From positions 1-47,193 of IMG/VR virus record IMGVR_UViG_3300034196_000147: DNA of 47,193 nt; one strand, 5' to 3'. A model generated the notes under the pieces. It had not been told where the DNA came from and made no database searches. It saw only the letters and a list, made by a program, of their open reading frames with translations. The position numbers and the translations under genes are program-made. The stretch comes from a virus. This document shows positions 1 to 47,193 of the stretch, piece after piece (the first letter of the stretch is position 1; every line of letters starts with the position of its first letter).

Positions 1-127
1 GTCCAAGGAGTATGTGGCCACCGCCGTGGCCAACTTCGTGGAGAAGGGCGGCGAAGCCGCCGACTACGCCGAGAAGCTGCGCAGCATCCCCAAGCGCGTC
101 GACACCGAGGTCCACACGACCTACACC
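1..127. repeat. Left copy of 127-bp terminal direct repeat
   Basis: Bases 1-127 are identical to 47067-47193. The tape measure reading frame continues across the join without a break when one copy is removed. The simplest reading is an assembly overlap of a circular or circularly permuted molecule, giving a unique length of about 47,066 bp. A true short terminal repeat is possible but less likely, because it lies inside a structural gene far from the terminase. Confidence 0.9.
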
Positions 128-4054: not shown

Positions 4055-4095
4055 AAAAAAACACCCCCCGATCAGCACTGCTGATCGGGGGGTGT
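4055..4095 (-). terminator. Strong intrinsic terminator between converging operons
   Basis: Near-perfect inverted repeat, 17-bp arms 4061-4077 and 4079-4095. On the plus strand it is preceded by seven A (4055-4061), which become a U-tract after the hairpin in leftward transcripts. It therefore ends the leftward operon whose last gene stops at 4160. The hairpin also faces the end of the late operon. A second small hairpin (GATCTCAG at 4126-4133 with CTGAGATC at 4143-4150) sits between it and the last leftward gene. The palindrome GTGTGCGCGCACAC (4094-4107) abuts its right edge. Confidence 0.85.
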
Positions 4096-5322: not shown

Positions 5323-6900
5323 CTAGGCGACCTTCGGGCGGCGTACCAGCGTGTACAGAAAGGACCGTGATCCGGGGACTTTTCGGGCGTCGATGAAGCC
5401 CTCGGCCTTGAGCTCGGCCAGGCGCGCCTTGACCACGCTTAGCGCCGCGCCGGTGCGATCGGCGACGGACTGAGCGTCGAGCCCAGCCGGGGCGGCGGCC
5501 AGCGCGTCCATAATCTTCTCGGCCGCCGTCCAGTCGAGGATGGTGGTCTGCGACGCCGCCGGGCGCGCCATGGGCCGCGGTGCCGGGCTGGGCTGGACGG
5601 GGGCGGGCGGGGGCGGCGTGGGGGCAGCGCTGGCCAGCACCTGCGCTGGCTTGGGCGTCCAGGGCTGGTAGGGCTGGGGCGGGCGGCCCTGGGCGGCCGG
5701 CGCCAGGTCCTCGGCGGTGAGGTGCGGCAGCCTGAGCAGCGCCGGCTCGTCGCCGCCGTCGAAGTACAGCGCCTGGCCGACGGGCAGCACGGCCACCTGG
5801 CGGGCCTCCTCGCTGCTGGGCAGGATGGGCGCGGCGGCGTCCGGGTTCATATTGAAGATCAGGCGGTGCGTGGCCTGATCGCGGCCCTGGCGAGCGACCA
5901 CGCCGCCGAACCAGGCCCCGCGCAGGTCATGGGCGATCAGCAGGGTGTGCACGCCCGCGGCCGAGGCCTGCGTGGCGGTGAGGAAGAGGTCGGTGAGCGC
6001 CTCGGCCGAGACGACCCCGCGCCCAGCCACGCTGGAGAAGTCGTCGACCACCAGCAAGATGCGCTCGCCGGTCTCGCCGTAGTCGATGCGCCGCCGGGCG
6101 ATCTTCGTCACCAGCTCCACGGTGTGGGCGATCTGCTCGGGCTCGATCGCCTGGCGGTAGATCGCCCCGGTCATCGTGGCCAGCTGCTGGCGCAGCAGCG
6201 AGCGGTCGCGCCGGTAGCTCGGGTCGCAGATGAAGATCGTCCACCCGCTCAGCGCGGCCTGGCCGATCAGCAGCGCGGCGGCTGAGCTCTTGCCCTTGCC
6301 CGACTGCCCGGCCACAATCATCAGTCCCCACTCTGGGGCGCGGATGTAGCGCGGCTGCTGCCCGGCGTAGCCCATCAGCAGCTGGGTGGCGCCGGGGGTG
6401 ACGTCCTTGCGGTCGATGAGCTGCTGGAGGCGCGGCACGCCGTAGGCAAAGTGCTCGTGCGGCGGCGGCAGCGCCGGCGCTGCGGGCTCCTCGGTGAGCT
6501 GCGGGGCCGGCTCGCGCAGCTCGACGGCGAGCGGCTCGCGGGCGCGCGGGGCCTGGATGGTCAGGCTGTGCAGCCCGTCCGGCAGCTCCTGGTGCTGCGC
6601 CCGGGCCAGGGCGATCTCCAGCGAGGCGGCCCGCGCCTTCGGCGACGCCCAGCGGGTGAAGGTGCCGATCGCGGCCACAAAGCCAACGGCGCCACCGATG
6701 ATCAGCAGGCCGATCAGCCCCCAGGCCAGGCCCTCGGTGGCCAGCGCGCCGGCGTCCTGCACCCGCCGGGCCGTGCCCTGCACATAGTCGTAGTCGCGCA
6801 CGAAGTAGACCCAGGGCATCCCGACGCAGGCAAGCAGCAGCGCCCCAATAATCACGACAACGGTCGATACACGCCCGCCTGGTGAAGTGTTGTTTTCCAT
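5323..6900 (-). CDS. FtsK/SpoIIIE-like membrane-anchored DNA-translocase ATPase
   Basis: 525 residues. Two hydrophobic segments lie at about 13-34 and 57-80. A linker leads to a P-loop ATPase core with Walker A GQSGKGKSS (198-206) and Walker B ILLVVDDF (281-288), in the FtsK/HerA style. A Pro-rich linker (about 400-450) then leads to a winged-helix domain (about 455-515, AAEKIMDALAAAPAGLDAQSVADRTG), comparable to the DNA-reading gamma domain of FtsK. Known relatives pump double-stranded DNA through a membrane-bound hexamer. Here it sits beside a ParM/ParR pair, so segregation, resolution or transfer of a plasmid-like genome is a plausible job. It is shorter than cellular FtsK and has two rather than four membrane segments. 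Confidence 0.75.
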   Translation of the reverse strand: MENNTSPGGRVSTVVVIIGALLLACVGMPWVYFVRDYDYVQGTARRVQDAGALATEGLAWGLIGLLIIGGAVGFVAAIGTFTRWASPKARAASLEIALARAQHQELPDGLHSLTIQAPRAREPLAVELREPAPQLTEEPAAPALPPPHEHFAYGVPRLQQLIDRKDVTPGATQLLMGYAGQQPRYIRAPEWGLMIVAGQSGKGKSSAAALLIGQAALSGWTIFICDPSYRRDRSLLRQQLATMTGAIYRQAIEPEQIAHTVELVTKIARRRIDYGETGERILLVVDDFSSVAGRGVVSAEALTDLFLTATQASAAGVHTLLIAHDLRGAWFGGVVARQGRDQATHRLIFNMNPDAAAPILPSSEEARQVAVLPVGQALYFDGGDEPALLRLPHLTAEDLAPAAQGRPPQPYQPWTPKPAQVLASAAPTPPPPAPVQPSPAPRPMARPAASQTTILDWTAAEKIMDALAAAPAGLDAQSVADRTGAALSVVKARLAELKAEGFIDARKVPGSRSFLYTLVRRPKVA

Positions 6901-6965
6901 AGCACGGCCTCGCTTATACTATGCAGTGGGGCGGGTCGCCTTGCACGGCCTCCCTGCCCCACTGG

Positions 6966-7017
6966 GCGCCCCTGCTGAACTCAGGGGCGCCTCTCTGTGT
7001 TCAGCCTAGCGCTGAAC
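6966..7017. terminator. Hairpin and GCTGAAC repeats between segregation genes and FtsK-like gene
   Basis: GGCGCCCCTG (6966-6975) pairs with CAGGGGCGCC (6982-6991), a 10-bp GC-rich hairpin. The heptamer GCTGAAC occurs at 6974-6980 and 7011-7017 and inverted at 6999-7005. There is no clear T-tract leftward, so this may be a weak terminator or processing site after parR, or part of a regulatory region for the FtsK-like gene that starts at 6900. Confidence 0.5.
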
Positions 7018-7041: not shown

Positions 7042-7083
7042 GGGTGTATTACACTTTCGCGCCGCGCGCCGGGTGTATTACAC
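7042..7083. repeat. Two GGGTGTATTACAC repeats, candidate centromere or operator
   Basis: Identical 13-mers at 7042-7054 and 7071-7083, 29 bp apart. The second extends to the 15-bp palindrome GGGTGTATTACACCC, with a single central T. They lie immediately downstream of the ParR-like gene (ends 7085) and upstream of the FtsK-like gene. ParR proteins bind short direct repeats (parC) next to their operon, so this is the nearest centromere candidate; an operator for the FtsK-like promoter is the alternative. Confidence 0.5.
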
Positions 7084-7084
7084 C

Positions 7085-7315
7085 CTAGAAGGCGTCGAGC
7101 AGGGCGTCGAGCTCGTCCTCTGTGATGCCCAGCGCGCTGGCCGGGCTCTCCACCTCGCGGGCCTGGCCGGAGAGGTAGGCGGCGGCCCAGCGCAGGATCG
7201 CCGCGCTGCGCCCGCGCTCGCCCACGTCGGATAAGGCGGCCGCCACGATCAGGGCGTCCGGGTTCGCCGGCGAGAGCGAGAGCGGGACGATGGTGCGCCG
7301 GCCCTTGATGAGCAT
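7085..7315 (-). CDS. ParR-like centromere-binding adaptor
   Basis: 76 residues, starting one base after the stop of the actin-like gene. The N-terminal half (RRTIVPLSLSPANPDALIV, then RGRSAAILRWAAAYLSG) has the basic strand followed by two helices expected of a ribbon-helix-helix fold, with the ParR-like feature of a short helix ending in a conserved hydrophobic AAYL. The acidic C-terminal tail (ITEDELDALLDAF) resembles the part of ParR that contacts the end of the ParM filament. Size, position and pattern agree with ParR; the assignment rests on the actin-like neighbour more than on sequence identity. Confidence 0.65.
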   Translation of the reverse strand: MLIKGRRTIVPLSLSPANPDALIVAAALSDVGERGRSAAILRWAAAYLSGQAREVESPASALGITEDELDALLDAF

Positions 7316-7316
7316 C

Positions 7317-8282
7317 TCAGCTCCCCCGCTGGGCCTTGCGGCGGGCGTAGCGCCAGAGGCCGATCGCGATGGCCTGCTGGGGGTTGCTCACCACACGGGC
7401 CGCCTTGAAGGCCCGGCGCAGGTCCTCAGCGACCCAGTGGACGGTGCCGCCGGCGAAGAGGTAGGCCACCGGCTTGAAGCTCGACCAGGAGCGCTGGAGC
7501 TCCCCGACGACGGCCTCACGGTACTGGCGCAGCAGCTGATCGGCCGCGGGATCCTTGCCGGGGGTGCGCACGGCCGCCTCCAGTCGGCGCTCGGCGTCGA
7601 GATACTGCTGGCCGCTCTGCTGCATCAGCGCCTCGACGACCTGGCGCGAGCCGAGCAGGGGGCTGGCCGACTGGCCGGGCAGGGCGCGCAGGCCTTCGAG
7701 CACCGAGCGGTTCAGGGTGGCGCCGCCGATGTCGCCGACGGCCACCAACCCCTTGGCCAGCGCGGCCTGGTCGGTGCGGATCGCGCCGGCGTCGTCGAGC
7801 AGCTCGTAGGAGATCACCGCGTTGGGCTCCGACTGGACGTAGATCTCCTTGATCTCGATCAGGCCCTTCAGGCCGGCGCGCAGGTGGGCGGTGATTGCCG
7901 CCTCGGCCGACTCGTCGCGCCAGGCCACCGGCAGTGCCGTGGCGATCAGCACCGTCGGCTTCCCCTTGGCCAGGCCGGTGTGCTGGGCGCTCATCTGGGC
8001 CAGGGCCTGATACATCGGCGAGTGGGGCTCCAGGCGCCCGTTGGCCATCTGGCGATTGGCCAGGGGCAGGCGCTCGGCCGCGCTGCCGCCGATGTAGCTG
8101 GCGCCGCCGACGGTGGCCACCAGGTCGACGCTCTTGCGGATCAGGCCGGTGTCGTCGCTGCGGGCGAACGGGGCGATCACGGCCGGGTAGGGGCGGAGAT
8201 CCTTGCGCTCGCCGGCGCGGGTGATCGTGTCCTTGACCATACGCTGGCCGGGGTTGTGGCCCCAGCAGATGAGCTCGCTCAT
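7317..8282 (-). CDS. ParM-like actin-family plasmid segregation protein
   Basis: 321 residues, a usual ParM length. Actin-fold nucleotide motifs appear in order: a degenerate phosphate-1 region near the N-terminus (GHNPGQRMVK), TVLIATALPVAW (110-121), the SEPNAVISYELLDD segment (151-164), phosphate-2 AVGDIGGATLN (181-191), and the adenosine motif YLFAGGTVHW (274-283), followed by NPQQAIAIGLWRYA. ParM polymerises with ATP and pushes plasmid copies apart through ParR bound to parC. The ParR-like gene follows with a 1-bp gap. Upstream of the start the plus strand has GTTAGG twice (about 8298-8313), which might be further adaptor sites. Presence in a phage implies stable extrachromosomal inheritance, or positioning of replicating phage DNA in the cell. 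Confidence 0.8.
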   Translation of the reverse strand: MSELICWGHNPGQRMVKDTITRAGERKDLRPYPAVIAPFARSDDTGLIRKSVDLVATVGGASYIGGSAAERLPLANRQMANGRLEPHSPMYQALAQMSAQHTGLAKGKPTVLIATALPVAWRDESAEAAITAHLRAGLKGLIEIKEIYVQSEPNAVISYELLDDAGAIRTDQAALAKGLVAVGDIGGATLNRSVLEGLRALPGQSASPLLGSRQVVEALMQQSGQQYLDAERRLEAAVRTPGKDPAADQLLRQYREAVVGELQRSWSSFKPVAYLFAGGTVHWVAEDLRRAFKAARVVSNPQQAIAIGLWRYARRKAQRGS

Positions 8283-8324
8283 ATTCGTGTTCTTTCTGTT
8301 AGGAATGCGTTAGGGTTGGGGGTA

Positions 8325-8651
8325 CTAGGCCATCTTGTTGGGCTTGCCGCGCGGCGTGCGGGGCGGGCGGCTCGTGCGGCGCTGGGCGTCGAAGACGGCC
8401 TCAGCGGCCCGGAGCGCCCATCCGTCGTCGCTGGCCACGCGCTCGCTAATGAGCGCGATGATCAGGTCGCCGAGGGCGATCGAGAGGACGTGGGCGGTAG
8501 CGGCCTCCGTGGGCGCGATCGCGATCGTGGTCTCCCACATCGCCCTCGCCAGCTCCGGGTCGCTGCGGACGTCGGCCTCGGTCGCTGTGGCCTCGGCGTC
8601 GGTGGCGGCGCGCTCGCTGGCGTAGAGGCGGCGGATCTCGTCGGGGGTCAC
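8325..8651 (-). CDS. Small helical hypothetical protein
   Basis: 108 residues with a GTG start that overlaps the MazG stop (GTGA). Acidic, alanine-rich N-terminal helix (PDEIRRLYASERAATDAEATATEADVRSD), a hydrophobic helix (VLSIALGDLIIALI), and a basic tail (RTSRPPRTPRGKPNK). It lies between mazG and parM in the same transcription unit. No family is recognised. Confidence 0.6.
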   Translation of the reverse strand: MTPDEIRRLYASERAATDAEATATEADVRSDPELARAMWETTIAIAPTEAATAHVLSIALGDLIIALISERVASDDGWALRAAEAVFDAQRRTSRPPRTPRGKPNKMA

Positions 8652-8998
8652 TCGGCCACCTCGATGCGACCGATGCTCGCCTGCGCGCTGTAGCCCTCCG
8701 GGTAGCGAGCGCGCAGCTTCTCGACGTTCGCCGCCATCACGTCGGATAAGCTCAGATCAAGCTTCGAGCACAGCGCGGCGACATACCAGAGCACGTCGCC
8801 CAGCTCCTTCTTCACCTTCTCGAGGTCGAGGCCGTGCTGGTGGAAGATGCCCTTCTTCACCAGATCGGCCACCTCGCCCGCTTCGCCCGCCAGTCCGATC
8901 GCGTTCCATGCAATCATCACTTCGTCAGACGTGATGGTGAAATCCGGCTCTTCGATCAGCGTTCGCCCAGCAAGTTCCTGGTAGGTCGTGGCGTCCAT
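8648..8998 (-). CDS. mazG: MazG-like nucleoside triphosphate pyrophosphohydrolase
   Basis: 116 residues, the length of single-domain phage MazG proteins. The metal-binding pattern is clear: ExxE at 39-42 (GEAGEV) and ExxD at 65-68 (KKELGDVLWY), with the helical segment VMAANVEKLRARYPEGY following as in the family. The enzyme hydrolyses (d)NTPs to monophosphates and pyrophosphate; phage versions are thought to reshape nucleotide pools or starvation signalling during infection. GAGGAG precedes the ATG. The 64-bp gap upstream holds an AT-richer cluster of TGCA-type inverted repeats that may be its own promoter region. Confidence 0.85.
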   Translation of the reverse strand: MDATTYQELAGRTLIEEPDFTITSDEVMIAWNAIGLAGEAGEVADLVKKGIFHQHGLDLEKVKKELGDVLWYVAALCSKLDLSLSDVMAANVEKLRARYPEGYSAQASIGRIEVAE

Positions 8999-19763: not shown

Positions 19764-19979
19764 ATGAGCACGATCTCCCGCCCGTCCCTCAACATCGACT
19801 TGACGCAGAACGTGGTGCCGATCTCCCGCGCGGCCTCGTCGCTGGCCGCCCTGATCAAGCGCGCCCAGGCTGACCAGGTGCCGATCGTGGTGACCCAGAA
19901 GGGCTACCCGTCGGGCGTGATCGTGCCGATCGCGCTGTTCACCGCCCTGAAGGCCTTGGCCGACGAGGCCGCGTCGTGA
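19764..19979 (+). CDS. Phd/YefM-like antitoxin
   Basis: 71 residues with GAGGAG upstream. The stretch NVVPISRAASSLAALIKRAQADQVPIVVTQKGYPSGVIVPIALFTAL matches the Phd/YefM fold: a short strand, a DNA-binding helix pair, and the VTQKGxPxxVIVP strand. Antitoxins of this family repress their operon and neutralise a toxin. The next gene does not resemble Doc or RelE/YoeB toxins, so this looks like a solitary antitoxin. It may protect against host toxins or act as a small regulator. Confidence 0.75.
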   Translation: MSTISRPSLNIDLTQNVVPISRAASSLAALIKRAQADQVPIVVTQKGYPSGVIVPIALFTALKALADEAAS

Positions 19980-20022: not shown

Positions 20023-20397
20023 ATGACCCTCCGCGCTATCTTCCGCGAGATGTACGCCACGGCCGCGGCTCGCCAGGCCGGCGATCAGCCCGGCGAGTCC
20101 TACCGCGTGCTCGCCGGCGGCGCCGAGGTGCGGGTGCGCGTCCTGGGCAAGAAGCACCAGGTCGTGCTCTCGCGCCGGCGGGTGTTTGTCTCTGAGGAGG
20201 AGATCCGCACCTTCCGGCGCGACGGCGGGATCCCCGAGGGCGCCACCCGCAAAGACTACAAGACCCCGCGCGACAAGCGGCGCCACGTGGCCCTGACCTG
20301 GGAGGCGCAGGCGACGCTCTTCGACCTGCTTGATAAAGCCACCGAAGCCCCCGCGCCGCAGCAGGACGCGGAGGAAGGTCGGGCGGAAGTTTCGTAA
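20023..20397 (+). CDS. Hypothetical early protein
   Basis: 124 residues, with AGGAAGG before the ATG. N-terminal helix (TLRAIFREMYATAAARQAG), then a beta-rich basic middle (EVRVRVLGKKHQVVLSRRRVFVSEEEIRTFRRDGGIPEG) and a basic C-terminus (TRKDYKTPRDKRRHVALTWEAQATLFDLL). It follows the antitoxin-like gene but lacks toxin signatures that I can recognise. It is the last gene before a pair of strong hairpins. Confidence 0.6.
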   Translation: MTLRAIFREMYATAAARQAGDQPGESYRVLAGGAEVRVRVLGKKHQVVLSRRRVFVSEEEIRTFRRDGGIPEGATRKDYKTPRDKRRHVALTWEAQATLFDLLDKATEAPAPQQDAEEGRAEVS

Positions 20398-20632: not shown

Positions 20633-22291
20633 ATGCCATCACAACTACCCAACACGCTCTACTACGGTGACAACCTCGATATTCTGCGCCAGTACATCGC
20701 CGACGCCTCGGTCGACCTGGTCTACCTCGACCCTCCCTTCAACTCCAATCGTAACTACAACGTGCTCTTTAAGGATGAGAAGGGCGTCGATAGCGAGGCC
20801 CAGATCACCGCGTTCGAGGATACCTGGCACTGGAACCAGGCGGCTGAGGTGACCTATCGCGATCTGGCGATCGGGAGCCCCATCGGCGAGCTGATGGGCG
20901 CCATCCTCACGCTCACCGGGCGCGGCCAGATGGGCGCCTACCTGGTGATGATGGCGGCGCGGCTGGTCGAGTTGCACCGCGTGCTGAAGCCGACGGGCAG
21001 CCTGTACCTGCACTGCGACCCCACCGCCAGCCACTACCTGAAAATCATCCTCGACGGCATTTTCAACCCTCGTTTCTTTCGGAATGAGGTGATATGGCAG
21101 CGTACATCTGCCCATAATGACCCATCACGCTACGGGCGTATTCACGATGTACTGCTGTTCTATACCAAGAGTGACACCTTTACGTGGAACCCGCAGTACA
21201 CCACTCCTGATGAGAAGTTTTTCAGCGCACACGATTTCGAGAAAGACGACCAAGGGAAGCTCTATCGAAAACGTGATCTGACCGCCCCCTCACATGCAGG
21301 TGGCAGCTCCGGTCAATACGATTGGAAGGGCAAACGCCCACCGACAGGGCGTATGTGGAGCTATGTTCAGGACAAAATGGAGCAGCTCGAAGCTGACGGC
21401 AGAATTGTGTACACCAAGACGGGGATGCCCCGATTAAAGATATACCTCGAAGACTTAAAGGGGACGCCCCTGCAGGATGTATGGGCTGACCCCGATCTCT
21501 GGCTCAACTCAGCCGCTAAAGAGCGCCTGGGCTACCCCACACAGAAGCCGCTGGCCCTCCTAGAGCACATCATTAATACGAGCTCGAACCCCGGCGATGT
21601 GGTCCTTGACCCCTTCTGCGGCTGCGGGACGGCGGTGGCCGCCGCCCAGAAGCTCGGCCGGCGCTGGGTGGGTATCGATATCACGCACCTCGCCATTGCG
21701 CTTCAGAAATATCGCATGGAGCAGATGTATCCCGGCATGACCGTCCAGGTCATCGGCGACCCCAAGGATATCGGCGCCGCGCACCAACTCGCCAACGACG
21801 GCCGTTACCAGTTCCAGTGGTGGGCCTTGTCGTTAGTGCGGGCGCGACCCGTCGGCGGCGATGCGGGCAGCAAGGTGGGCAAGAAGGGCAGCGACAAGGG
21901 GATCGACGGGGTGATCAACTTCGTGGATGACGCCGGCGGCAAGCCGAAGCGCACGTTAGTACAGGTGAAGTCGGGCAAGGTGAAGTCGGGCGACATCCGC
22001 GACCTGGTCGGCACGGTGCAGCGCGAGGGCGCGCAGCTCGGCGTCTTCATCACCCTGGAGGAGCCCAGCCGCGATATGCGAACAGAGGCGACCAGCGCAG
22101 GCTTCTACGAATCGCCGGGCTGGGGGAAGCGCTACCCGAAGGTCCAGATCCTCACCATCGCCGAGCTGCTGCGCGGGGTCGATGTGCAGATGCCGCCGCC
22201 CTTCGGGACGTTCAAGGCGGCCCAGCGGGTGAAGGGCGATCCCGAAGCCGAGCAGCGGGAGCTTGATCTCACTGAAGCCTCCGCTGCGTGA
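20633..22291 (+). CDS. Adenine DNA methyltransferase fused to Mrr-type endonuclease
   Basis: 552 residues. Motif IV DPPF at 33-36 comes before the SAM-binding motif I DPFCGCGT at 326-333, the beta-class order, with the target-recognition region between (about 140-290). GYPTQKPLALLEHI (300-313) is typical of these enzymes. The C-terminal domain has DKGIDGVINF (421-430) and QVKSG (444-448), the PD-(D/E)xK pattern of Mrr-like nucleases, then GVFIT. It would add N6-methyladenine and might cut DNA of different methylation state, so it could protect phage DNA from host restriction or attack competitors. DNA encoding the middle (about 21060-21530) is visibly more AT-rich than both ends, suggesting an exchanged recognition domain. 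Confidence 0.85.
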   Translation: MPSQLPNTLYYGDNLDILRQYIADASVDLVYLDPPFNSNRNYNVLFKDEKGVDSEAQITAFEDTWHWNQAAEVTYRDLAIGSPIGELMGAILTLTGRGQMGAYLVMMAARLVELHRVLKPTGSLYLHCDPTASHYLKIILDGIFNPRFFRNEVIWQRTSAHNDPSRYGRIHDVLLFYTKSDTFTWNPQYTTPDEKFFSAHDFEKDDQGKLYRKRDLTAPSHAGGSSGQYDWKGKRPPTGRMWSYVQDKMEQLEADGRIVYTKTGMPRLKIYLEDLKGTPLQDVWADPDLWLNSAAKERLGYPTQKPLALLEHIINTSSNPGDVVLDPFCGCGTAVAAAQKLGRRWVGIDITHLAIALQKYRMEQMYPGMTVQVIGDPKDIGAAHQLANDGRYQFQWWALSLVRARPVGGDAGSKVGKKGSDKGIDGVINFVDDAGGKPKRTLVQVKSGKVKSGDIRDLVGTVQREGAQLGVFITLEEPSRDMRTEATSAGFYESPGWGKRYPKVQILTIAELLRGVDVQMPPPFGTFKAAQRVKGDPEAEQRELDLTEASAA

Positions 22292-22305: not shown

Positions 22306-22362
22306 TGCTACCATAGCCCTGTGTTCGCCCTTCACGGCCCCCGCGATTGTCGCGGGGGCCGT
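22306..22362 (+). promoter_or_regulatory. Promoter-like box and leader hairpin upstream of second recombinase
   Basis: TGC-TACCAT at 22306-22314 resembles the extended -10 boxes found elsewhere in this genome. A 12-bp perfect hairpin follows (22334-22345 with 22351-22362, 5-nt loop). No T-tract follows. It could be a terminator for the methyltransferase gene or a structured leader for the recombinase. Confidence 0.45.
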
Positions 22363-22386
22363 GGCGATCTTCCCCGGAGCCCCGCC

Positions 22387-23424
22387 ATGCCCACGCTGCG
22401 CGACGCCCTCGCGCGCCGAATTGCCCAGCGCCCCGAGCTGCTCGACGGAACCCCCGCCGAGCGCGCCCTAATACGGCCGGAGACGCCTGCCGATCGGGTC
22501 GAGACATGCGAGAATGGACATTCTGGGCAGTCTCGCGGCGCCGGCCCGGCGGCGGTCTACCTGGCCCGCCTGGCGCCGGGATCTCGGCCGACGATGCGCG
22601 CCGCCCTGACGACCTGCGCGCGCCTCCTCGGCCACGCCGATCCCCACACCTGCCCCTGGCACCAACTGACCTACGTCCACACCGCGGCCCTGCGCGCCCA
22701 GCTGGCCAGCAGCCTGGCGCCGGCGACGGCCAATAAGATCCTGGCCGCCCTGCGCGGCGTGCTGCTCGAGTCGCGCCGCCTCGGCCTGATGGGCGCCGAT
22801 GCCTGCGCGGCCGCGCGCGACGTAGCCCCGGTGCGTGGCCGGCGCCTGCCCGCCGGCCGGGCCCTGGCCGCCCAGGAGCTCGCCGCCGTGCTGCGCACCT
22901 GCGCGGCCGACGGCGGGCCGCGCGGCCGGCGCGACGCCGCGCTGATCGCGGTCGGCTACGGGGCCGGGCTGCGTCGGGCCGAGCTCGTCGCCCTGGCCCT
23001 GGCCGACTATGACCGGGGCGAGCGGACGCTGCGCGTGCGGCGCGGCAAGGGCAATGCCGAGCGGGTGGCCTACCTGGGCGCCGACTGGGCGCGCCTGCTC
23101 GATGTATGGTTGGCCGTGCGCGGCCGGCGGGCCGGGCCGCTCTTCCTGGCAACCACGCGCACCGGGCGGATCCTGGCCCGCGGCCTGGCCGCCTCGACGG
23201 TGCGCGAGATCTGCCTGGCCCGCGGCGACGCGGCCGGCGTGGCCCGCTTCAGCCCCCACGATCTGCGCCGCACCATGATCGGCGACCTGCTCGACGATGG
23301 GGAGGACCTGGCCACGGTGCAGGCCACCGTCGGCCACGCCAACATTGCCACCACTGCCCGCTACGACCGGCGCGGCGAGCGGGCGAAGCGGCGCGCTGCC
23401 GAGCGCCTGCGCCTGGCCGAGTAG
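22387..23424 (+). CDS. Second tyrosine recombinase (XerD-like)
   Basis: 345 residues from ATG 22387, with GGAG upstream. The N-terminal core-binding domain spans about 55-145 (MRAALTTCARLLGHADPHTC, LAPATANKILAALRGVLLESRRLGL). The catalytic set is R197 (GLRRAELVAL), K221 (RGKGNAERVAYL), H291-x-x-R294 (SPHDLRRTMI), H317 (VGHANIATTARYDRRG) and Y326. It is quite different from the integrase at 15329. The C-terminus has the GHxxxxTTxxYdrrG pattern of site-specific recombinases on mobile elements. Possible roles are resolving genome multimers, fitting the partition genes, or an alternative integration route. Confidence 0.85.
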   Translation: MPTLRDALARRIAQRPELLDGTPAERALIRPETPADRVETCENGHSGQSRGAGPAAVYLARLAPGSRPTMRAALTTCARLLGHADPHTCPWHQLTYVHTAALRAQLASSLAPATANKILAALRGVLLESRRLGLMGADACAAARDVAPVRGRRLPAGRALAAQELAAVLRTCAADGGPRGRRDAALIAVGYGAGLRRAELVALALADYDRGERTLRVRRGKGNAERVAYLGADWARLLDVWLAVRGRRAGPLFLATTRTGRILARGLAASTVREICLARGDAAGVARFSPHDLRRTMIGDLLDDGEDLATVQATVGHANIATTARYDRRGERAKRRAAERLRLAE

Positions 23425-37386: not shown

Positions 37387-38487
37387 ATGGACCTGCCGCT
37401 GATCAGCATCATCACCCCCGTCGGCCCGCGCCACGTCGATCACGTGGGTGTGGCGGCGGCCTCCGTCGCCTGGCAGAGCGTGCCGGCGGCCTGGGTTGAG
37501 CACCTCATCGAGCACGACACCGACCGCAGCGGGCCGGCGGCCACGCGCAACCGGGCGCTCGCGCGGGCCAAGGGCGCCTTCGTGGTCTTCCTCGACGCCG
37601 ATGACTATTTGATCCCGACGGCCCTGGAGACCTACCTGCGCGGCTTCGCGCGGGCGGGCCAGGCCAGCTACGTCTACGCCGACAACTACGTGATCAACGC
37701 CGACGGCACGCACCACTACAGCAACAGCGCCGAGTACGACCAGACGCACCAGGCCCACTACAACCAGCACGTCGTGACCGCCCTGGTGCCCACGGCCCTG
37801 GTGCGCGCGGTGGGCGGCTTCGACGACGCGATCGACCTCTGGGAGGATTGGACGCTCTGGCTGCGGCTGGCGATCACGGGCTATTGTGGCCAGCGCATCC
37901 GCGAGCCAGCCCTGGTCTACCGCATCAGCGAGGGCGAGCGTATGGTGCGCGGCCAGGCGCTCGGGCAGCCGCCGATGGAGCTGGTGCAGCGGCGCTACGC
38001 CAACGAGAAAGGGCAGATCGTCATGTGTGGATGTGGACAGCCTCCGGAGGCCCGCCTGGCCCAGCAGCAGGCCCAGTTCGCCGTGCAGGTTCTGGGCGCC
38101 CCGGCTGGCGACATCGGCAACGGCCTGATCCGCCTGGTCTACGCCGGGCTCCAGAGCGGCGGCTTCTTTGCGACGAGCCAGACGACCGGCCAGCGCTACA
38201 AGCTCGGGGGCGGGCGCCTGGTCGACGCGGATCCGGCCGATGTGGACTGGCTGATCAGCATCGGCTGCCAGCCGGTGGTGCGCGCGGACTTCGTGCCGCC
38301 CCCCGAGCCGGTGGCCCTGGGCAACGTGGCCGAGAGCGCCGCCCCGCCGATGCCGCCGGCGCAGCCGCTCGGCGCCGCGCCTGACGACGACACGCCGCGG
38401 ATCACCGAGCTCACCCCCGGCCCGGAGGCGCCGACGGAGGGCGCCCCCTACACGCCCACGCGGCTGAAGAAGCGAGGCGCAGCGTGA
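37387..38487 (+). CDS. Family-2 glycosyltransferase, decoration cassette gene 1
   Basis: 366 residues, with AGGGGAG before the ATG. GT-A fold: LISIITPVGPRHVDHVGVAAASVAWQSVP, then AATRNRALARAKGAFVVFLDADDYLIP with the DADD metal site (about 70-73), YVYADNYV, GGFDDAIDLWEDWTLWLRLAITGYCGQRI (the ED-x-x-LWLRL acceptor motif), and PALVYRISEGERM. The last ~150 residues are an extra part with CGCGQPPEARLAQQQ and a Pro/Glu-rich tail. Such enzymes transfer sugars from nucleotide donors; here probably onto virion proteins or phage DNA bases, since host envelope genes are absent. Confidence 0.8.
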   Translation: MDLPLISIITPVGPRHVDHVGVAAASVAWQSVPAAWVEHLIEHDTDRSGPAATRNRALARAKGAFVVFLDADDYLIPTALETYLRGFARAGQASYVYADNYVINADGTHHYSNSAEYDQTHQAHYNQHVVTALVPTALVRAVGGFDDAIDLWEDWTLWLRLAITGYCGQRIREPALVYRISEGERMVRGQALGQPPMELVQRRYANEKGQIVMCGCGQPPEARLAQQQAQFAVQVLGAPAGDIGNGLIRLVYAGLQSGGFFATSQTTGQRYKLGGGRLVDADPADVDWLISIGCQPVVRADFVPPPEPVALGNVAESAAPPMPPAQPLGAAPDDDTPRITELTPGPEAPTEGAPYTPTRLKKRGAA

Positions 38488-39122
38488 GCGAGGTCGCCGT
38501 CATCCTGCCCTGCCGGGGGCGCCACGAGCAGACGATCACCTACGCCGCGCAGCTGCGCGCGGCCGCCGGGGCGGTCGATGTGGAGTGGTGGGCCGTAGGA
38601 GGTCCAGACGAGCGGCCTACGCTGACCGAGCTGGAGCGCGCAGCGTGGCGAGTGCTCGAAAATAATCGCCCGCTCAGTTACTGGAGGGCGCTCGACCTTG
38701 CGCTTGGCGATGCGCGAGGTGCGATCATCTGCGCCGTCGCCAACGACGTGTGGGCGCAGGAGGGCTGGCTGGCCAACGGCCTGGCCGCCTACCGGGCCAG
38801 ATTCGCCGACGGCGAGGGCCTGATGGGCTTCGCCGGCGATGGGCACCCGCCTGAACATTCGTGTCATTTCCTAATCGGACGCGGGCTGCTCTTCTACCTG
38901 GGCGGCTGGCCCGTCCACTACCACCACAACTTTGGAGACGCCGAGCTGTGCCTGCGCGCCCAGCAGCTCGGCCGCTACGGGAAGGCCACCCACGCCGTGC
39001 TCGAGCACCGCCACGTATGGGCAGGGGCCGCCCCTGACGACGCGGTGTATCAGGCCGGGCGGGCGCGCTGGGCTGAGGATCAGAGTCTGTTTGAAGCGAG
39101 GAAAGCGAGGAACTGGGTATGA
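38484..39122 (+). CDS. Second glycosyltransferase-like protein
   Basis: 212 residues, overlapping the previous gene by 4 bp. EVAVILPCRGRHEQTITYAAQLRAAAGAVDVEWWAVGG starts a GT-A-like Rossmann half. NRPLSYWRALDLALGDARGAIICAVANDVWAQEGWLANGLAAY has an NDVW where the usual DxD would be. LIGRGLLFYLGGWPVHYHHNFGDAELCLRAQQLG matches the glycosyltransferase acceptor-side motif (GG-x-F-D-x-x-F-x-x-x-x-D-x-D-L-C-x-R-x-x-x-x-G). Probably works with the first gene. Confidence 0.7.
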   Translation: MSEVAVILPCRGRHEQTITYAAQLRAAAGAVDVEWWAVGGPDERPTLTELERAAWRVLENNRPLSYWRALDLALGDARGAIICAVANDVWAQEGWLANGLAAYRARFADGEGLMGFAGDGHPPEHSCHFLIGRGLLFYLGGWPVHYHHNFGDAELCLRAQQLGRYGKATHAVLEHRHVWAGAAPDDAVYQAGRARWAEDQSLFEARKARNWV

Positions 39123-39357: not shown

Positions 39358-39951
39358 ATGCTCACCCTGCACCACATCAGCGAGCGCGACGCCAGCGAGG
39401 GCTACCCCGGCCCGGTGCCCGCGCTCCAGCGCGTCTGGGAGTTCGCCCAGATGCTCGACCTCTACCGGCAGCGCCGGCCGCGGAGCGTGCTCGAAGTGGG
39501 CAGCTACCACGGGGGCACGCTGTACCACTGGCTCACCACCGCGGCCCCCGGCGCGTTTGTGGTGAGCGTCGATCTGCCGCCCGCCGGGGTGGACAACCGC
39601 GCCCTGTTCCACGCCTGGTGCCCGCCAGGGGTGGAGCTGCATTGCCTGCGGGGCGATAGCCGTGATCCGGCCATCCTGGCCGCGGTCGAGGGGATCGGCC
39701 CCTTCGACTGGGTCTTCCTCGACGCCGGCCACGCGCGCGAAGAGATCGCCGCCGACTGGGCGGCCTATCGCCCACTCGTGGCCGACGGCGGGGTAATCGC
39801 CCTGCATGACATCCTGCCCGGGCGGGGACCGCAGGCCTGGATCGAGGTCTGCCCGGTGTGGCGGGCGATCCAGCGCCAGGGCTACGTGACGCAGGAGATC
39901 GTGGCCTCCGAGGATGTGAACTGGGGCGGGATCGGGGTGGTCTACCTATGA
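39358..39951 (+). CDS. Class I SAM-dependent methyltransferase
   Basis: 197 residues from ATG 39358. Motif I VLEVGSYHGGTLYHWL (about 44-59), acidic strand end SVDLPP (about 70-75), motif LRGDSRDPAIL, FDWVFLDAGHAREEIAADWAAYRPLVADGGVIALHDI (the DAxHxxxxxxxDxxxxxPLxxxGGxxxxHD pattern of CmcI/TylF-like methyltransferases). In glycan loci these enzymes methylate sugars. Between glycosyltransferases here, it probably modifies the sugar put on by its neighbours. Confidence 0.8.
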   Translation: MLTLHHISERDASEGYPGPVPALQRVWEFAQMLDLYRQRRPRSVLEVGSYHGGTLYHWLTTAAPGAFVVSVDLPPAGVDNRALFHAWCPPGVELHCLRGDSRDPAILAAVEGIGPFDWVFLDAGHAREEIAADWAAYRPLVADGGVIALHDILPGRGPQAWIEVCPVWRAIQRQGYVTQEIVASEDVNWGGIGVVYL

Positions 39952-40475
39952 AGCTGCACCTGCTCACCGCGGTCACCCGGCCCGCCAACCTGCCCGCGCT
40001 GGCCGCGAGCATCGACGCCGCCCAGGTCGCCGGCGTCGCGCTCGTCTGGCACATCGGCTACGACCTCGAGCGCACGGCCGTCGGCGGGCAGGCGATCAAG
40101 AACGCGCTGATCGATAGCATCGCCGACGGCTGGGTCAGCATCCTCGACGATGACAACCTGCTGCACCCCGATCTGCCGCGGCGCCTGGCCGAGACGCTGG
40201 CCGCGCAGGCGGACGCCCTGCTGATTGTCGTCAGCCAGCAGCTGCCCGACGGCGGGGTGCGCCGGGCCGGCCTGGGCTGCCTGCACGTCGACCAGGTCGA
40301 CGCCGCCCAGCTGATCGTCCGGCGCGACGCGCTCGGCGAGCGGCGCCTGGTCGAGACCTACGCCGGCGACGGCCTGCTCGCCGAAGCCCTGGCCGCGGCC
40401 CTGCCGGCGGGCCAGATCGTCTACCTCGACGAGGTGCTGAGCTACTACAACCGACTCCCGGGAGGTGTGGCGTGA
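39948..40475 (+). CDS. Third glycosyltransferase-like protein
   Basis: 175 residues from ATG 39948, overlapping the methyltransferase gene by 4 bp. KLHLLTAVTRPANLPALAASIDAA is the start of a GT-A fold, and GWVSILDDDNLLHPDLPRRLAETLA holds the DDDN metal site (about 67-70). QQLPDGGVRRAGLGCLHVDQVDAAQLIVRRDALGERRLV and LYDEVLSYYNRLPGG-like YLDEVLSYYNRL end the catalytic core. It is short, a minimal catalytic domain. Third enzyme of the cassette. Confidence 0.75.
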   Translation: MKLHLLTAVTRPANLPALAASIDAAQVAGVALVWHIGYDLERTAVGGQAIKNALIDSIADGWVSILDDDNLLHPDLPRRLAETLAAQADALLIVVSQQLPDGGVRRAGLGCLHVDQVDAAQLIVRRDALGERRLVETYAGDGLLAEALAAALPAGQIVYLDEVLSYYNRLPGGVA

Positions 40476-44445: not shown

Positions 44446-47193
44446 ATGGCGCTGCCAGAGTCGGGCTTTAAGCTCATCGCGCAAAACGCGGCCGTCTTCA
44501 TCGCCGATATGGATCGGGCGGGGACGGCCTCTGAGGCGTTCGCCGATGCGGTGACCGCCACCTCGAGCCAGGTGGCCCACGCCCAGACCGCCCAGGACCG
44601 CGCCGTCGCCAACGCGGCCGGCATGTACCAGGACGCCGCCGGCAAGTGGCGCACCGCCTCGGGCCAGTTCGCCTCCTCGGCCGAGAAGGCCGCCGCCGGG
44701 ATCATCGACTCCAGCGACGACGTGGCCAAACAGGGCGGCAAGGGCTACAAGAGCTTCGAGGAGGTGGCCAGCGGGGCGCTGCGCAAAGTCGGCGAGATGG
44801 CCGTCGACTACGCCGCCCAGGCCGGCGCGGCGATTGTCCAGTTCGTCGGCGACAGCATCGGCCAGGCGGGGGACTTCGAGGCGGGCATGAACCGCTTTGG
44901 CGCCGTCGTCGGCTCGGCGATGGACGACAGCGGACAGAGCCTGGAGAGCTTCAGTAAGCTCTTCCTCAAATTGGGCGCCGATACGCAGTACTCGGCGGCC
45001 CAGGCCCAGGACGCGGCGATCAATCTGGCCAAGGGCGGCATCGACCCGGCCACGATCGCCGCCGGCGGCCTGGAGGCGGCGCTGAACCTAGCGGCCGCTG
45101 GCGAGCTCGATCTGGCCCAGGCCGCCGAGATCACCGCCAAGCAGTACGGCGTGTGGGTCAGCGCCTCCGCCAGCGCGGCCGAGAAGGCCGCCTTCCTGGC
45201 CGAGAGCGCCGATCTGCTCTCGCAGGCTGCCAACGCCTCGACCGTCGATGTCGACGACCTGGCCCTCGGCCTCTCCAACGCTGGCGGCGTGGCCAAGGTC
45301 AGCGGGCTCTCCTTCCGCGAGACCGTCACGACCATGGCCCTGCTGGCGCCGGGCTTCTCCAGCGCGGCCGACGCGGGCACCTCGTTTAAGACGTTCCTGA
45401 CCCGCCTGATCCCGACGACGGACGCGCAGGCCTCGGCAATGGCCAAGCTCGGCCTGCTCACCGCCGACGGCAGCAGCGCCTTCTACGATGCGACCGGCTC
45501 CTTCATCGGCATGGAGAAGGCGGCCGGGCTGCTTCAGAACGCTACTAAGGGCCTCACCAACGAGCAAAAGCAGATGGCCCTCCAGGCCATCTTCGGCTCG
45601 GACGCGCTGCGGGCTGGCGCGATTTTGGCCGAGCAGGGCGCCGACGGCTACGACCGCATGGCGGGCAGCATGAGCGCCGCTGGCACGGCCGCCGAGCAGG
45701 CCGCCGCGCGCAACAAGGGCTTCAACTTCGCCCTCGAATCGGCAAAGGGCAGCCTGGAGAATTTCGGCATCGTGGCCGGCTCGCTGGCCCTGCCCGCGCT
45801 AACCGACCTGCTCACCAACGCGGTGATCCCGCTGATCAACGGGCTGACCGACTTCGCCAGCGCCCTGGCCGATCCGACCACCATGACCGGGCAGTGGGCC
45901 AGCGTGCTGAGCTCGCTGCTGGTGCCAAGCCTGGAGGGCCTGGCCGCGGCCACGGTCGCCTACGCGGCCACCCAGCTGCCGGTGCTGATCACCGCCGTGA
46001 CGGCCAGCAGCGGCGCGTTTATGGCCCAGGCCGCCGCGATCGCGGCCACGATGATCCCGCTGGCCGCCGTCGCCGTCGCCGTCGCCGGCGTGGCCTGGGC
46101 CTACAACGACTACAACAGCAAGATCGCGACGGCCACCCAGAAGCTGCTGGAGAGCAAGAGCTGGTGGGAAGCCAGCACGCAGGCCCTCGACGCCTACAAG
46201 GCCGCTCAGCTGGAGACCAACCCGAGCATCGCGGCCGCGGCCGCCACGGTGGAGTCGCTGCGCGCCCAGATCGAGCAGGAGACCGAGGCGCTCGGCCGGC
46301 GCATGACGGCGGGCCAGGAGAGCGACGCCCAGTATGCGACCGATATCGCCCACATCAACACCCTGGCTGGCTCGCTCCAGGCGGCCACCACCAACCTCGA
46401 CGCCCAGACCCAGGCCAGCGTGCGCACCGCCGCGGCTGGCCAGACGGCCACCGCGGCCGCGGCGACCATGGGCACCCAGACCGAGATCATGGGCGGCCAG
46501 GTGGCCCTGACGGCCGACGAGGTCGAGAAGCTCGGCCAGAAGATCCAGGATACGTACCAGAAGGGCGGCGAGGCCCTGGGCGCCTACGTCACCACCGAGG
46601 CCACCTTCCTCGACGGGGTCGAGCAGCGCCAGAGTGAGCACGCCACCAAGATCGCGGCCCTGGAGGCCCAGAAGCAGCAGGCGACCACGGCCGAGCAGCA
46701 GAAGGGCATCAACGACCAGATCGCGGCCCTGAACCAGGACTACGCCGATCAGGAAGCCGCCCAGGCCGCAAGCTACGCCGAGCAGCAGGCCGCCCAGCAG
46801 GCCCACCTCGGCCAGATGCTGATCGATTACACGGTGAGCCAGGCCACGCTGGGCAATATCTCCAAAGAGAAGGCCGCCGAGATCACCGCCGCCCTGGCGG
46901 AGCAGTATGGCCTCCAGGAGAGCGACACGGCGACGATTTTCCTGCATATGGCGGGCTCGATCGACGAGTTCGCCAGCAGCTCCTCGTCAAACATCGGCGA
47001 CCTGATCGGCACCCTCGAAGACCAGCAGGCCGCGGCGGTCGACACCGAGCAGGCCATGACCTCCATGTCCAAGGAGTATGTGGCCACCGCCGTGGCCAAC
47101 TTCGTGGAGAAGGGCGGCGAAGCCGCCGACTACGCCGAGAAGCTGCGCAGCATCCCCAAGCGCGTCGACACCGAGGTCCACACGACCTACACC
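44446..47193 (+). CDS. Tail tape measure protein, N-terminal and central part (continues at 2-505)
   Basis: Begins ATG 44446, 3 bp after the chaperone extension stop, and is open to the window end; joined to 2-505 it makes about 1,041 residues. After a helical N-terminus, the TP901-type core occupies about 145-410: SKLFLKLGADTQYSAAQAQDAAINLAKGG, then ITAKQYGVWVSASASAAEKAAFLAESADLLSQAANASTVDVDDLALGLSNAGGVAKVSGLSFRETVTTMALLAP and QAIFGSDALRAGAILAEQG. About 430-560 holds hydrophobic membrane-like segments (AAATVAYAATQLPVLITAV; ATMIPLAAVAVAVAGVAWAY). The rest is long coiled-coil. It sets tail length and probably enters the cell envelope at infection. Confidence 0.9.
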   Translation, partial: MALPESGFKLIAQNAAVFIADMDRAGTASEAFADAVTATSSQVAHAQTAQDRAVANAAGMYQDAAGKWRTASGQFASSAEKAAAGIIDSSDDVAKQGGKGYKSFEEVASGALRKVGEMAVDYAAQAGAAIVQFVGDSIGQAGDFEAGMNRFGAVVGSAMDDSGQSLESFSKLFLKLGADTQYSAAQAQDAAINLAKGGIDPATIAAGGLEAALNLAAAGELDLAQAAEITAKQYGVWVSASASAAEKAAFLAESADLLSQAANASTVDVDDLALGLSNAGGVAKVSGLSFRETVTTMALLAPGFSSAADAGTSFKTFLTRLIPTTDAQASAMAKLGLLTADGSSAFYDATGSFIGMEKAAGLLQNATKGLTNEQKQMALQAIFGSDALRAGAILAEQGADGYDRMAGSMSAAGTAAEQAAARNKGFNFALESAKGSLENFGIVAGSLALPALTDLLTNAVIPLINGLTDFASALADPTTMTGQWASVLSSLLVPSLEGLAAATVAYAATQLPVLITAVTASSGAFMAQAAAIAATMIPLAAVAVAVAGVAWAYNDYNSKIATATQKLLESKSWWEASTQALDAYKAAQLETNPSIAAAAATVESLRAQIEQETEALGRRMTAGQESDAQYATDIAHINTLAGSLQAATTNLDAQTQASVRTAAAGQTATAAAATMGTQTEIMGGQVALTADEVEKLGQKIQDTYQKGGEALGAYVTTEATFLDGVEQRQSEHATKIAALEAQKQQATTAEQQKGINDQIAALNQDYADQEAAQAASYAEQQAAQQAHLGQMLIDYTVSQATLGNISKEKAAEITAALAEQYGLQESDTATIFLHMAGSIDEFASSSSSNIGDLIGTLEDQQAAAVDTEQAMTSMSKEYVATAVANFVEKGGEAADYAEKLRSIPKRVDTEVHTTYT
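47067..47193. repeat. Right copy of 127-bp terminal direct repeat
   Basis: Identical to 1-127. See the left copy for the interpretation as the overlap of a circular molecule. Confidence 0.9.

Follow-up and report, generated by a model that had tools for sequence, protein, structure and literature searches.

Type II DNA segregation systems of the ParMRC kind, known from plasmids R1, pB171, pSK41 and pCW3, combine an actin-like NTPase gene, a small adaptor gene that follows it, and a centromere, parC, built as a direct-repeat array 5′ of parM. Published accounts place type II parC upstream (PMC9426499, PMC5016525), as the first-pass annotation of the locus described here had correctly stated, and characterised ParR proteins bind direct repeats that usually lie 5′ of parM (PMC9426499); one general published statement allows par sites on either side of the operon. 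It is through its tail that ParR of R1-type systems binds ParM (PMC5016525, section 7), the same account describing C-terminal tail contacts with ParM for the adaptors of R1, pB171, pSK41 and pCW3, and in a pSK41 construct with parC behind parR the turnover of ParM was still active (PMC4911067). Phages whose lysogenic stage is a circular plasmid usually carry Xer recombinases and ParMRC or a similar system (PMC7685451). Bacillus plasmid prophages such as B83 and IEBH are of siphovirus size and encode a ParM-like/RHH pair, often together with an Xer recombinase, B83 having tyrosine recombinases (PMC8026635, PMC6669507), and the ParM-like protein of Bp8p-C is cited as affecting lysogeny (PMC6669507). 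In prophage CGP3 of C. glutamicum the adaptor gene alpA lies upstream of the actin gene alpC with 24 repeats in front, and phage copies are two-fold fewer without AlpC and AlpA (PMC4446434). Literature mostly outside subscription journals yielded no paper describing a 3′ centromere for a phage ParM.

The present locus comes from a 47,193-bp stretch of viral DNA, one IMG/VR record, analysed over its whole length (the window), and encodes an actin-like protein of 321 residues and, starting one base past its gene on the same minus strand, a protein of 76 residues (Table 1). With moderate confidence, we read this pair as a phage-borne type II (ParMRC-like) DNA segregation cassette with its centromere 3′ of parR, because the actin-like protein is a PHROG_691 ParM, the pair is conserved, the adaptor tail is shared with Bacillus phages, two palindromes behind parR are kept in a relative, and the Bacillus phages too carry 3′ repeats. 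The cassette is a variant of the known ParMRC kind: as in R1, pB171, pSK41 and pCW3, an actin-like NTPase gene is followed by a small adaptor gene (in three of three contigs here), whereas no direct-repeat array was seen upstream of parM, two palindromes lying 3′ of parR instead, and its ParR has no detectable sequence similarity to solved ParR proteins. With B83, IEBH and similar prophages the window shares its siphovirus size and a ParM-like gene paired with a candidate RHH gene, but the iterons of B83 are 5′ of parM, the host group is another one, and the window recombinase is a putative Xer (PMC8026635, PMC6669507).

Table 1. Features of the candidate segregation locus and of the surrounding genome (window coordinates)
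Feature	Position	Strand	Remarks
Direct terminal repeat, exact	1..127 = 47067..47193	.	Identical copies
Membrane-anchored P-loop ATPase, 525 aa, winged-helix C terminus	5323..6900	-	FtsK/HerA-like (weak)
Two hairpins between palindromes and next gene	6964..7017	.	T-rich tail in + direction only
Palindrome 1 of candidate centromere (GGGTGTATTACACT)	7042..7055	.	Conserved in L002
Palindrome 2 of candidate centromere (GGGTGTATTACACCC)	7071..7085	.	Conserved in L002; 15 bp
parR-like gene, 76 aa	7085..7315	-	ATG start; putative RRT strand, two helices, C-terminal tail ITEDELDALLDAF
parM-like gene, 321 aa, actin-like NTPase	7317..8282	-	PHROG_691; ATG start
GTTAGG pair	8298, 8309		Near 8300; both copies present
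108-aa protein, no assigned function	8325..8651	-	42 bp upstream of parM
MazG-like pyrophosphatase, upstream gene	8648..8998	-	Pfam/PHROG scans
ParB-domain protein, 667 aa	10078-12081	-	TIGR00180 3.3e-28, Noc-like 5.8e-30
Tyrosine recombinase, integrase or Xer-type resolvase	22321..23424	+	PHROG_1, NCBIfam

Joined at its identical 127-bp ends, the window gives a circle of 47,066 bp, and a tape-measure-like reading frame crosses the join; the genome was circular or circularly permuted in the sample, a permuted virion genome having the same appearance. The window represents a tailed phage, as shown by its terminase subunits, tape-measure-like protein, Rad52/Erf-like annealing protein and tyrosine recombinase, and this phage is probably temperate. 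An integrase and a repressor gene had been noted at first. The former corresponds to the tyrosine recombinase, which matches the PHROG_1 integrase at 2.2e-31, but its top NCBIfam match is XerC (2.7e-30, 106 bits, under the 335-bit cut-off); 'integrase' is a putative label, and the enzyme may be an Xer-type resolvase. For the latter, the scanned window proteins (a subset of ORFs) contained no phage repressor family, and no plasmid replication initiator was found among them. The element may, as first suggested, both integrate and persist as a segregating plasmid. Genome-contig searches using the ParM alignment and the large terminase gave 33 and 30 pattern matches, respectively, and no relative. 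A recombinase 54% identical to that of the window is encoded at 7577-8692 of L042, in contig G003.

The 321-residue protein matches PHROG_691, a phage partition protein family, over residues 47-318 (E 4e-16, 60 bits), with Bp8p-C among the PHROG_691-type matches, and Pfam ALP_N weakly (E 0.001, under the cut-off). In profile-profile comparison it aligns with the ParM proteins of six Bacillus phages at 93% probability (E 3e-7, 279 columns), and the ParM of one relative, L003, matches the ParM model PRK13917 at 3e-6, under its cut-off. An alignment of eight ParM-like proteins bears out the earlier description of an actin-family protein with phosphate-2 and adenosine motifs: DIGGATLN (D184) occupies the former and AGG (277-279), its Gly pair kept, the latter, while QSEPNAV (E152) forms a connect-1-like stretch. 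Phosphate-1, phosphate-2, connect-1 and adenosine are the labels that we take to apply to these stretches. At phosphate-1 (N-P-G-Q-R-M-V-K) Asn10 replaces the usual Asp and the following Gly and Lys are kept; this residue is Asn in all three members of the window branch and Asp in nine of nine other distinct ParM-like proteins. Between the window and the relative L002, ParM differs by dN 0.13 and dS 0.44, which points to evolution under constraint. Structure prediction, proposed earlier as a check on both proteins, put R1 ParM at the top of a Foldseek search (E 8e-4), a match that deserves little weight because the AlphaFold model, built from a three-row alignment, is poor (pLDDT 48) and the superposition loose (rmsd 12.6 A, TM 0.26).

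For the 76-residue protein, which had been proposed as a ribbon-helix-helix candidate one base behind the actin gene, the reading frame and spacing stand, whereas the fold is still an unproven candidate. Its pattern is discerned by eye only, as an RRT-containing strand, followed by two helices that end in GRSAAILRWAAAYL and by an acidic C-terminal tail; Pfam, PHROGs, NCBIfam and PDB gave neither ParR homology nor a ribbon-helix-helix match, and the AlphaFold model (pLDDT 61, poor) contains helices at residues 19-34, 38-48 and 66-74 and no strand. Over its final 13 residues the protein matches the tails of those whose genes directly follow parM in six Bacillus phages, adaptors of 88-101 residues that carry RRT, RRS or RKS near the start and whose tails end in RLDxF. 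Against a matrix of these six tails the three ParRs of the window branch score 15.1 (window), 22.0 and 11.5; among 1984 other ORF ends the top score is 1.9, and none reaches 15.1 or the lowest of the three, a result to be read as an estimate of rarity and no test of homology, as the control ends are mostly non-coding. Shuffled tails attained their own score in 1, 0 and 3 of 20,000 trials. When the ParR profile is set against that of the Bacillus ParRs, the tail alone aligns (hhalign probability 1.8%, p 0.027). By analogy with R1-type systems, the 76-residue protein may bind ParM through this tail. Divergence between the window and L002 (dN 0.41, dS 0.57) suggests that ParR is under weak constraint. 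Other searches for relatives were set aside: ParR had no BLAST match to the Paenibacillus neighbour P0002, with an hhalign p of 0.31, tblastn of ParR in plasmids and phages matched at chance level alone, and a PDB search with the ParR profile returned designed repeat proteins (dTor, E 1.7e-7), judged to reflect composition.

The parM-parR pair is present in all three contigs known, the window and viral contigs G001 (locus L002) and G002 (locus L003), and viral-contig searches for more ParM/ParR relatives returned these same two alone. ParM is about 85-86% identical to that of the window in L002 and 67% in L003, and ParR 58% and 49%, respectively. Outside the pair the genomes are mosaic: the window has its early region and recombinase in common with G001, and its structural genes and terminase in common with G002. 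In each comparison no full-length protein is better kept than ParM (85% for G001, 67% for G002); the other proteins common to the window and G002 are 29-54% identical, apart from two partial matches over just 32 and 37 residues at 63-65%. Behind parR, L002 has the same palindrome pair at a spacing of 30 bp (29 bp in the window), and in the spacer between parR and the ATPase gene the palindromes are the longest conserved blocks, most of the rest having diverged. The pair is absent from L003, where an 11-bp perfect inverted repeat directly after parR forms a hairpin followed by a T-rich stretch; next comes a TCTGGTGTGAT/ATTACACCAGA palindrome that covers a promoter-like site. Immediately 5′ of parM, L003 has a perfect inverted repeat of 15 bp, and there its strongest symmetric DNA is found, 4 of 2079 segments being as rich against 140 of 2079 for the 3′ spacer. 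The putative DNA-contacting strand of ParR is common to the window and L002 and differs in L003, which fits a change of site, although three sequences cannot establish it.

In the window itself, the two GGGTGTATTACAC repeats reported behind parR, 29 bp apart, are confirmed: GGTGTATTACAC occurs at 7043-7054 and 7072-7083 (29 bp from start to start), each unit is a palindrome, GTGTA-T-TACAC, and the palindrome next to parR overlaps the last base of its stop codon. The whole window holds no third site with up to two mismatches (four strand matches, equal to two sites); shuffled windows give a mean of 0.83 strand matches, and 2 of 100 reach four. Two palindromes alone are fewer than the repeat arrays of published parC. 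The motif by itself is also not specific to ParM loci, since of 13 viral-contig stretches with the paired palindrome one is the L002 contig, ParM was not seen among the neighbourhoods listed for the remainder, and at least four stretches (L020, L021, L022, L029) contain the pair as portions of a single, longer inverted repeat. A GGTGTATTACACC palindrome pair lies at 6984-7022 of L028, an unrelated contig rich in GC, close to an ORF for an Arc-like repressor. The GTTAGG repeats suggested as an additional ParR target are indeed present, but were rejected as a centromere, having no counterpart in L002 or L003, and the 42-bp 5′ spacer contains no repeat of 8 or more. The hairpins beyond the palindromes were likewise rejected as terminators, as their T-tails oppose the direction of parR transcription in both the window and L002.

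Repeats were then compared by position at nine loci, the spacer before parM against that after parR, using 8-mer pairs and 500 dinucleotide shuffles. Direct repeats exceeded the shuffles in the 3′ spacer of six of six Bacillus phages, which are not six independent cases as Yucatan and 015DV002 have closely related loci (p 0.000 for f2b1, 015DV002 and Moonbeam, 0.002 for Yucatan and Troll, 0.030 for Bobb). The same holds for the window and L002 (0/500 shuffles each), but not for their 5′ spacers; in the 3′ spacer of L003 direct repeats gave p 1.0 and inverted repeats 0/500. An excess 5′ of parM was seen in Troll (0/500) and L003 (p 0.006) and not at the other seven loci, that is, in one of the six Bacillus phages (p 0.074 in f2b1, and a spacer of merely 24 bp in Yucatan). 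As a genomic control, every 150-bp segment of 24.6 kb was scored in four Bacillus phages, Yucatan and Troll being left out. Segments matching the 3′ spacer in direct repeats numbered 0/2447 in f2b1, 2/2443 in 015DV002 and 0/2441 in Moonbeam, so that in three of the four the spacer ranks first or close to first in repeat content, and that of Bobb is unexceptional (91/2453). In the GC-rich genomes, for which this control is a weak test, the figures are 121/4705 (window), 280/1405 (L002) and 2046/2079 (L003). Repeats behind parR are thus clear in most of the Bacillus phages and likely in the window and L002, and this phage family may therefore have parM-parR-parC as its usual order. This order, as first proposed for the window, draws support from family membership, the shared ParR tail, the palindromes kept in one relative and the 3′ repeats of the Bacillus-phage relatives, while the palindromes as ParR sites keep the rank of candidates. 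The Bacillus Herelleviridae with PHROG_691-type ParMs (Bp8p-C, Bobb, Moonbeam, f2b1, 015DV002, Yucatan, Troll) resemble the window in their related ParM, in the repeats located 3′ of parR and in an adaptor gene directly 3′ of parM, whose product bears RRT, RRS or RKS near its start and has an LD-x-F tail. They differ in that their ParM is only ~20% identical and keeps the phosphate-1 Asp, the phages are large, and the repeats are direct iterons rather than two palindromes.

If the pair does segregate DNA, the two GTGTAWTACAC palindromes would be bound by the N-terminal ribbon-helix-helix of ParR dimers, and the acidic ELDxLLDxF tails of these dimers would attach to the end of ATP-driven ParM filaments. 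The filaments would then transport copies of the phage circle or set them apart, either in the plasmid-prophage state or while the genome replicates once induced. The circular contig fits both plasmid segregation and CGP3-like replication or transport, and it is possible, if somewhat doubtful, that the filaments serve positioning or replication of phage DNA after induction of an integrated prophage and have no part in plasmid partition. The tyrosine recombinase of the window would suit such a role, as would the precedent of CGP3, which likewise joins a prophage-borne actin to a DNA-binding adaptor and repeats; however, its repeats have another motif, the window shows neither an adaptor gene upstream of the actin gene nor promoter repeats, its adaptor and sites lying behind the actin gene, no attachment site or host flank was found for this circular contig, and Bp8p-C, of PHROG_691 type, is listed among plasmid prophages without a recombinase (PMC8026635). 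A reading of the palindromes as an operator of the downstream ATPase gene, or as a site for some other regulator unrelated to ParR, is tentative to a similar degree. They lie ~140 bp ahead of the ATPase start in the window and 111 bp in L002, a similar palindrome in L003 overlies the promoter-like site of the next gene, and the similar pair near the Arc-like repressor ORF of L028 (PHROG_6506, E 0.007) indicates that such palindromes can be operators. Against this, no sigma-70-like promoter was found in the spacer of the window or L002, the palindromes reach into the region of the parR stop codon and are separated from the ATPase gene by GC-rich hairpins, and 3′ repeats also occur in Bacillus phages whose next gene is unrelated.

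Two further readings concern the proteins. A degenerate or non-dynamic scaffold, in which the phosphate-1 Asn abolishes or slows nucleotide hydrolysis, is an unlikely role for the actin-like protein: Asn10 does set the branch apart from other ParM-like proteins, but Asp184, Glu152 and the adenosine Gly pair are retained and the dN and dS values given above indicate constraint. It is more improbable still that partition proper falls to the ParB-like protein and its seven scattered 14-bp palindromes, with ParMR in an accessory role. The protein has ParB domains (TIGR00180 3.3e-28) and seven perfect GTGTGCGCGCACAC copies occur in the window where 0.0007 are expected, but no ParA was found among the scanned window proteins, G001 and G002 have ParMR without ParB or an exact GTGTGCGCGCACAC, and the contig fragment G003 carries GTGTGCGCGCACAC three times with no ParB homologue found, so that the motif may be dictated by the host. 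A close-relative scan of viral contigs gave no relative of the ParB-domain protein.

Returning to the segregation cassette, an annotated FtsK translocase is encoded 2.7-3.8 kb behind parR in four of four Bacillus stretches, and the 525-residue ATPase of the window is a conserved neighbour in L002 (54% identity). A link between ParMR and an FtsK-like translocase stays a lead, however, because the window ATPase is FtsK-like only weakly (PHROG_1358 E 0.061; hhalign 9% against the Bobb FtsK, around the Walker A stretch only). Another membrane ATPase is encoded directly before parM in L003, and was rejected as a homologue of that in the window (hhalign probability 0.6%). It is rather doubtful, but conceivable, that phage ParMs of PHROG_691 type constitute a separate class, with a centromere 3′ of parR and ties to an FtsK-like membrane translocase; in the window branch the centromere would have shrunk to two palindromes, and the actin, working with Asn at phosphate-1, would form long-lived filaments that hold the circle at the membrane. 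Should ParR bind downstream, the rule given in a review, that type II parC lies upstream and controls the promoter, would fail for this phage family, and the centromere would be uncoupled from autoregulation. Many phage ParM loci, in which the adaptor still bears the label 'hypothetical', would also gain sites to test, and the branch provides a natural Asp-to-Asn actin for studying nucleotide hydrolysis in filaments.

Some features elsewhere in the genome may be recorded. The GTGTGCGCGCACAC copies, at 4094, 10312, 19019, 23430, 29447, 35738 and 43593, are evenly spread on the 47-kb circle (gaps 4.4-8.7 kb, chance ~2 in 10,000), and five of the seven are intergenic by the ORF table; elsewhere there is none in G001, one match with two mismatches in G002, three perfect copies in G003 and one in G004. 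The motif is a possible parS, operator or host-dictated sequence. A Phd/YefM-type antitoxin (19764-19979, +; Pfam 4e-9, over the cut-off) has no recognised toxin alongside, the next ORF (20023-20397) being unassigned, and a DNA methyltransferase (20633-22291, +) has in its C-terminal part an Mrr-like/inactive nuclease domain (Pfam). Glycosyltransferase-like proteins are encoded in the late region, at 37387-39122 and 39858-40475.
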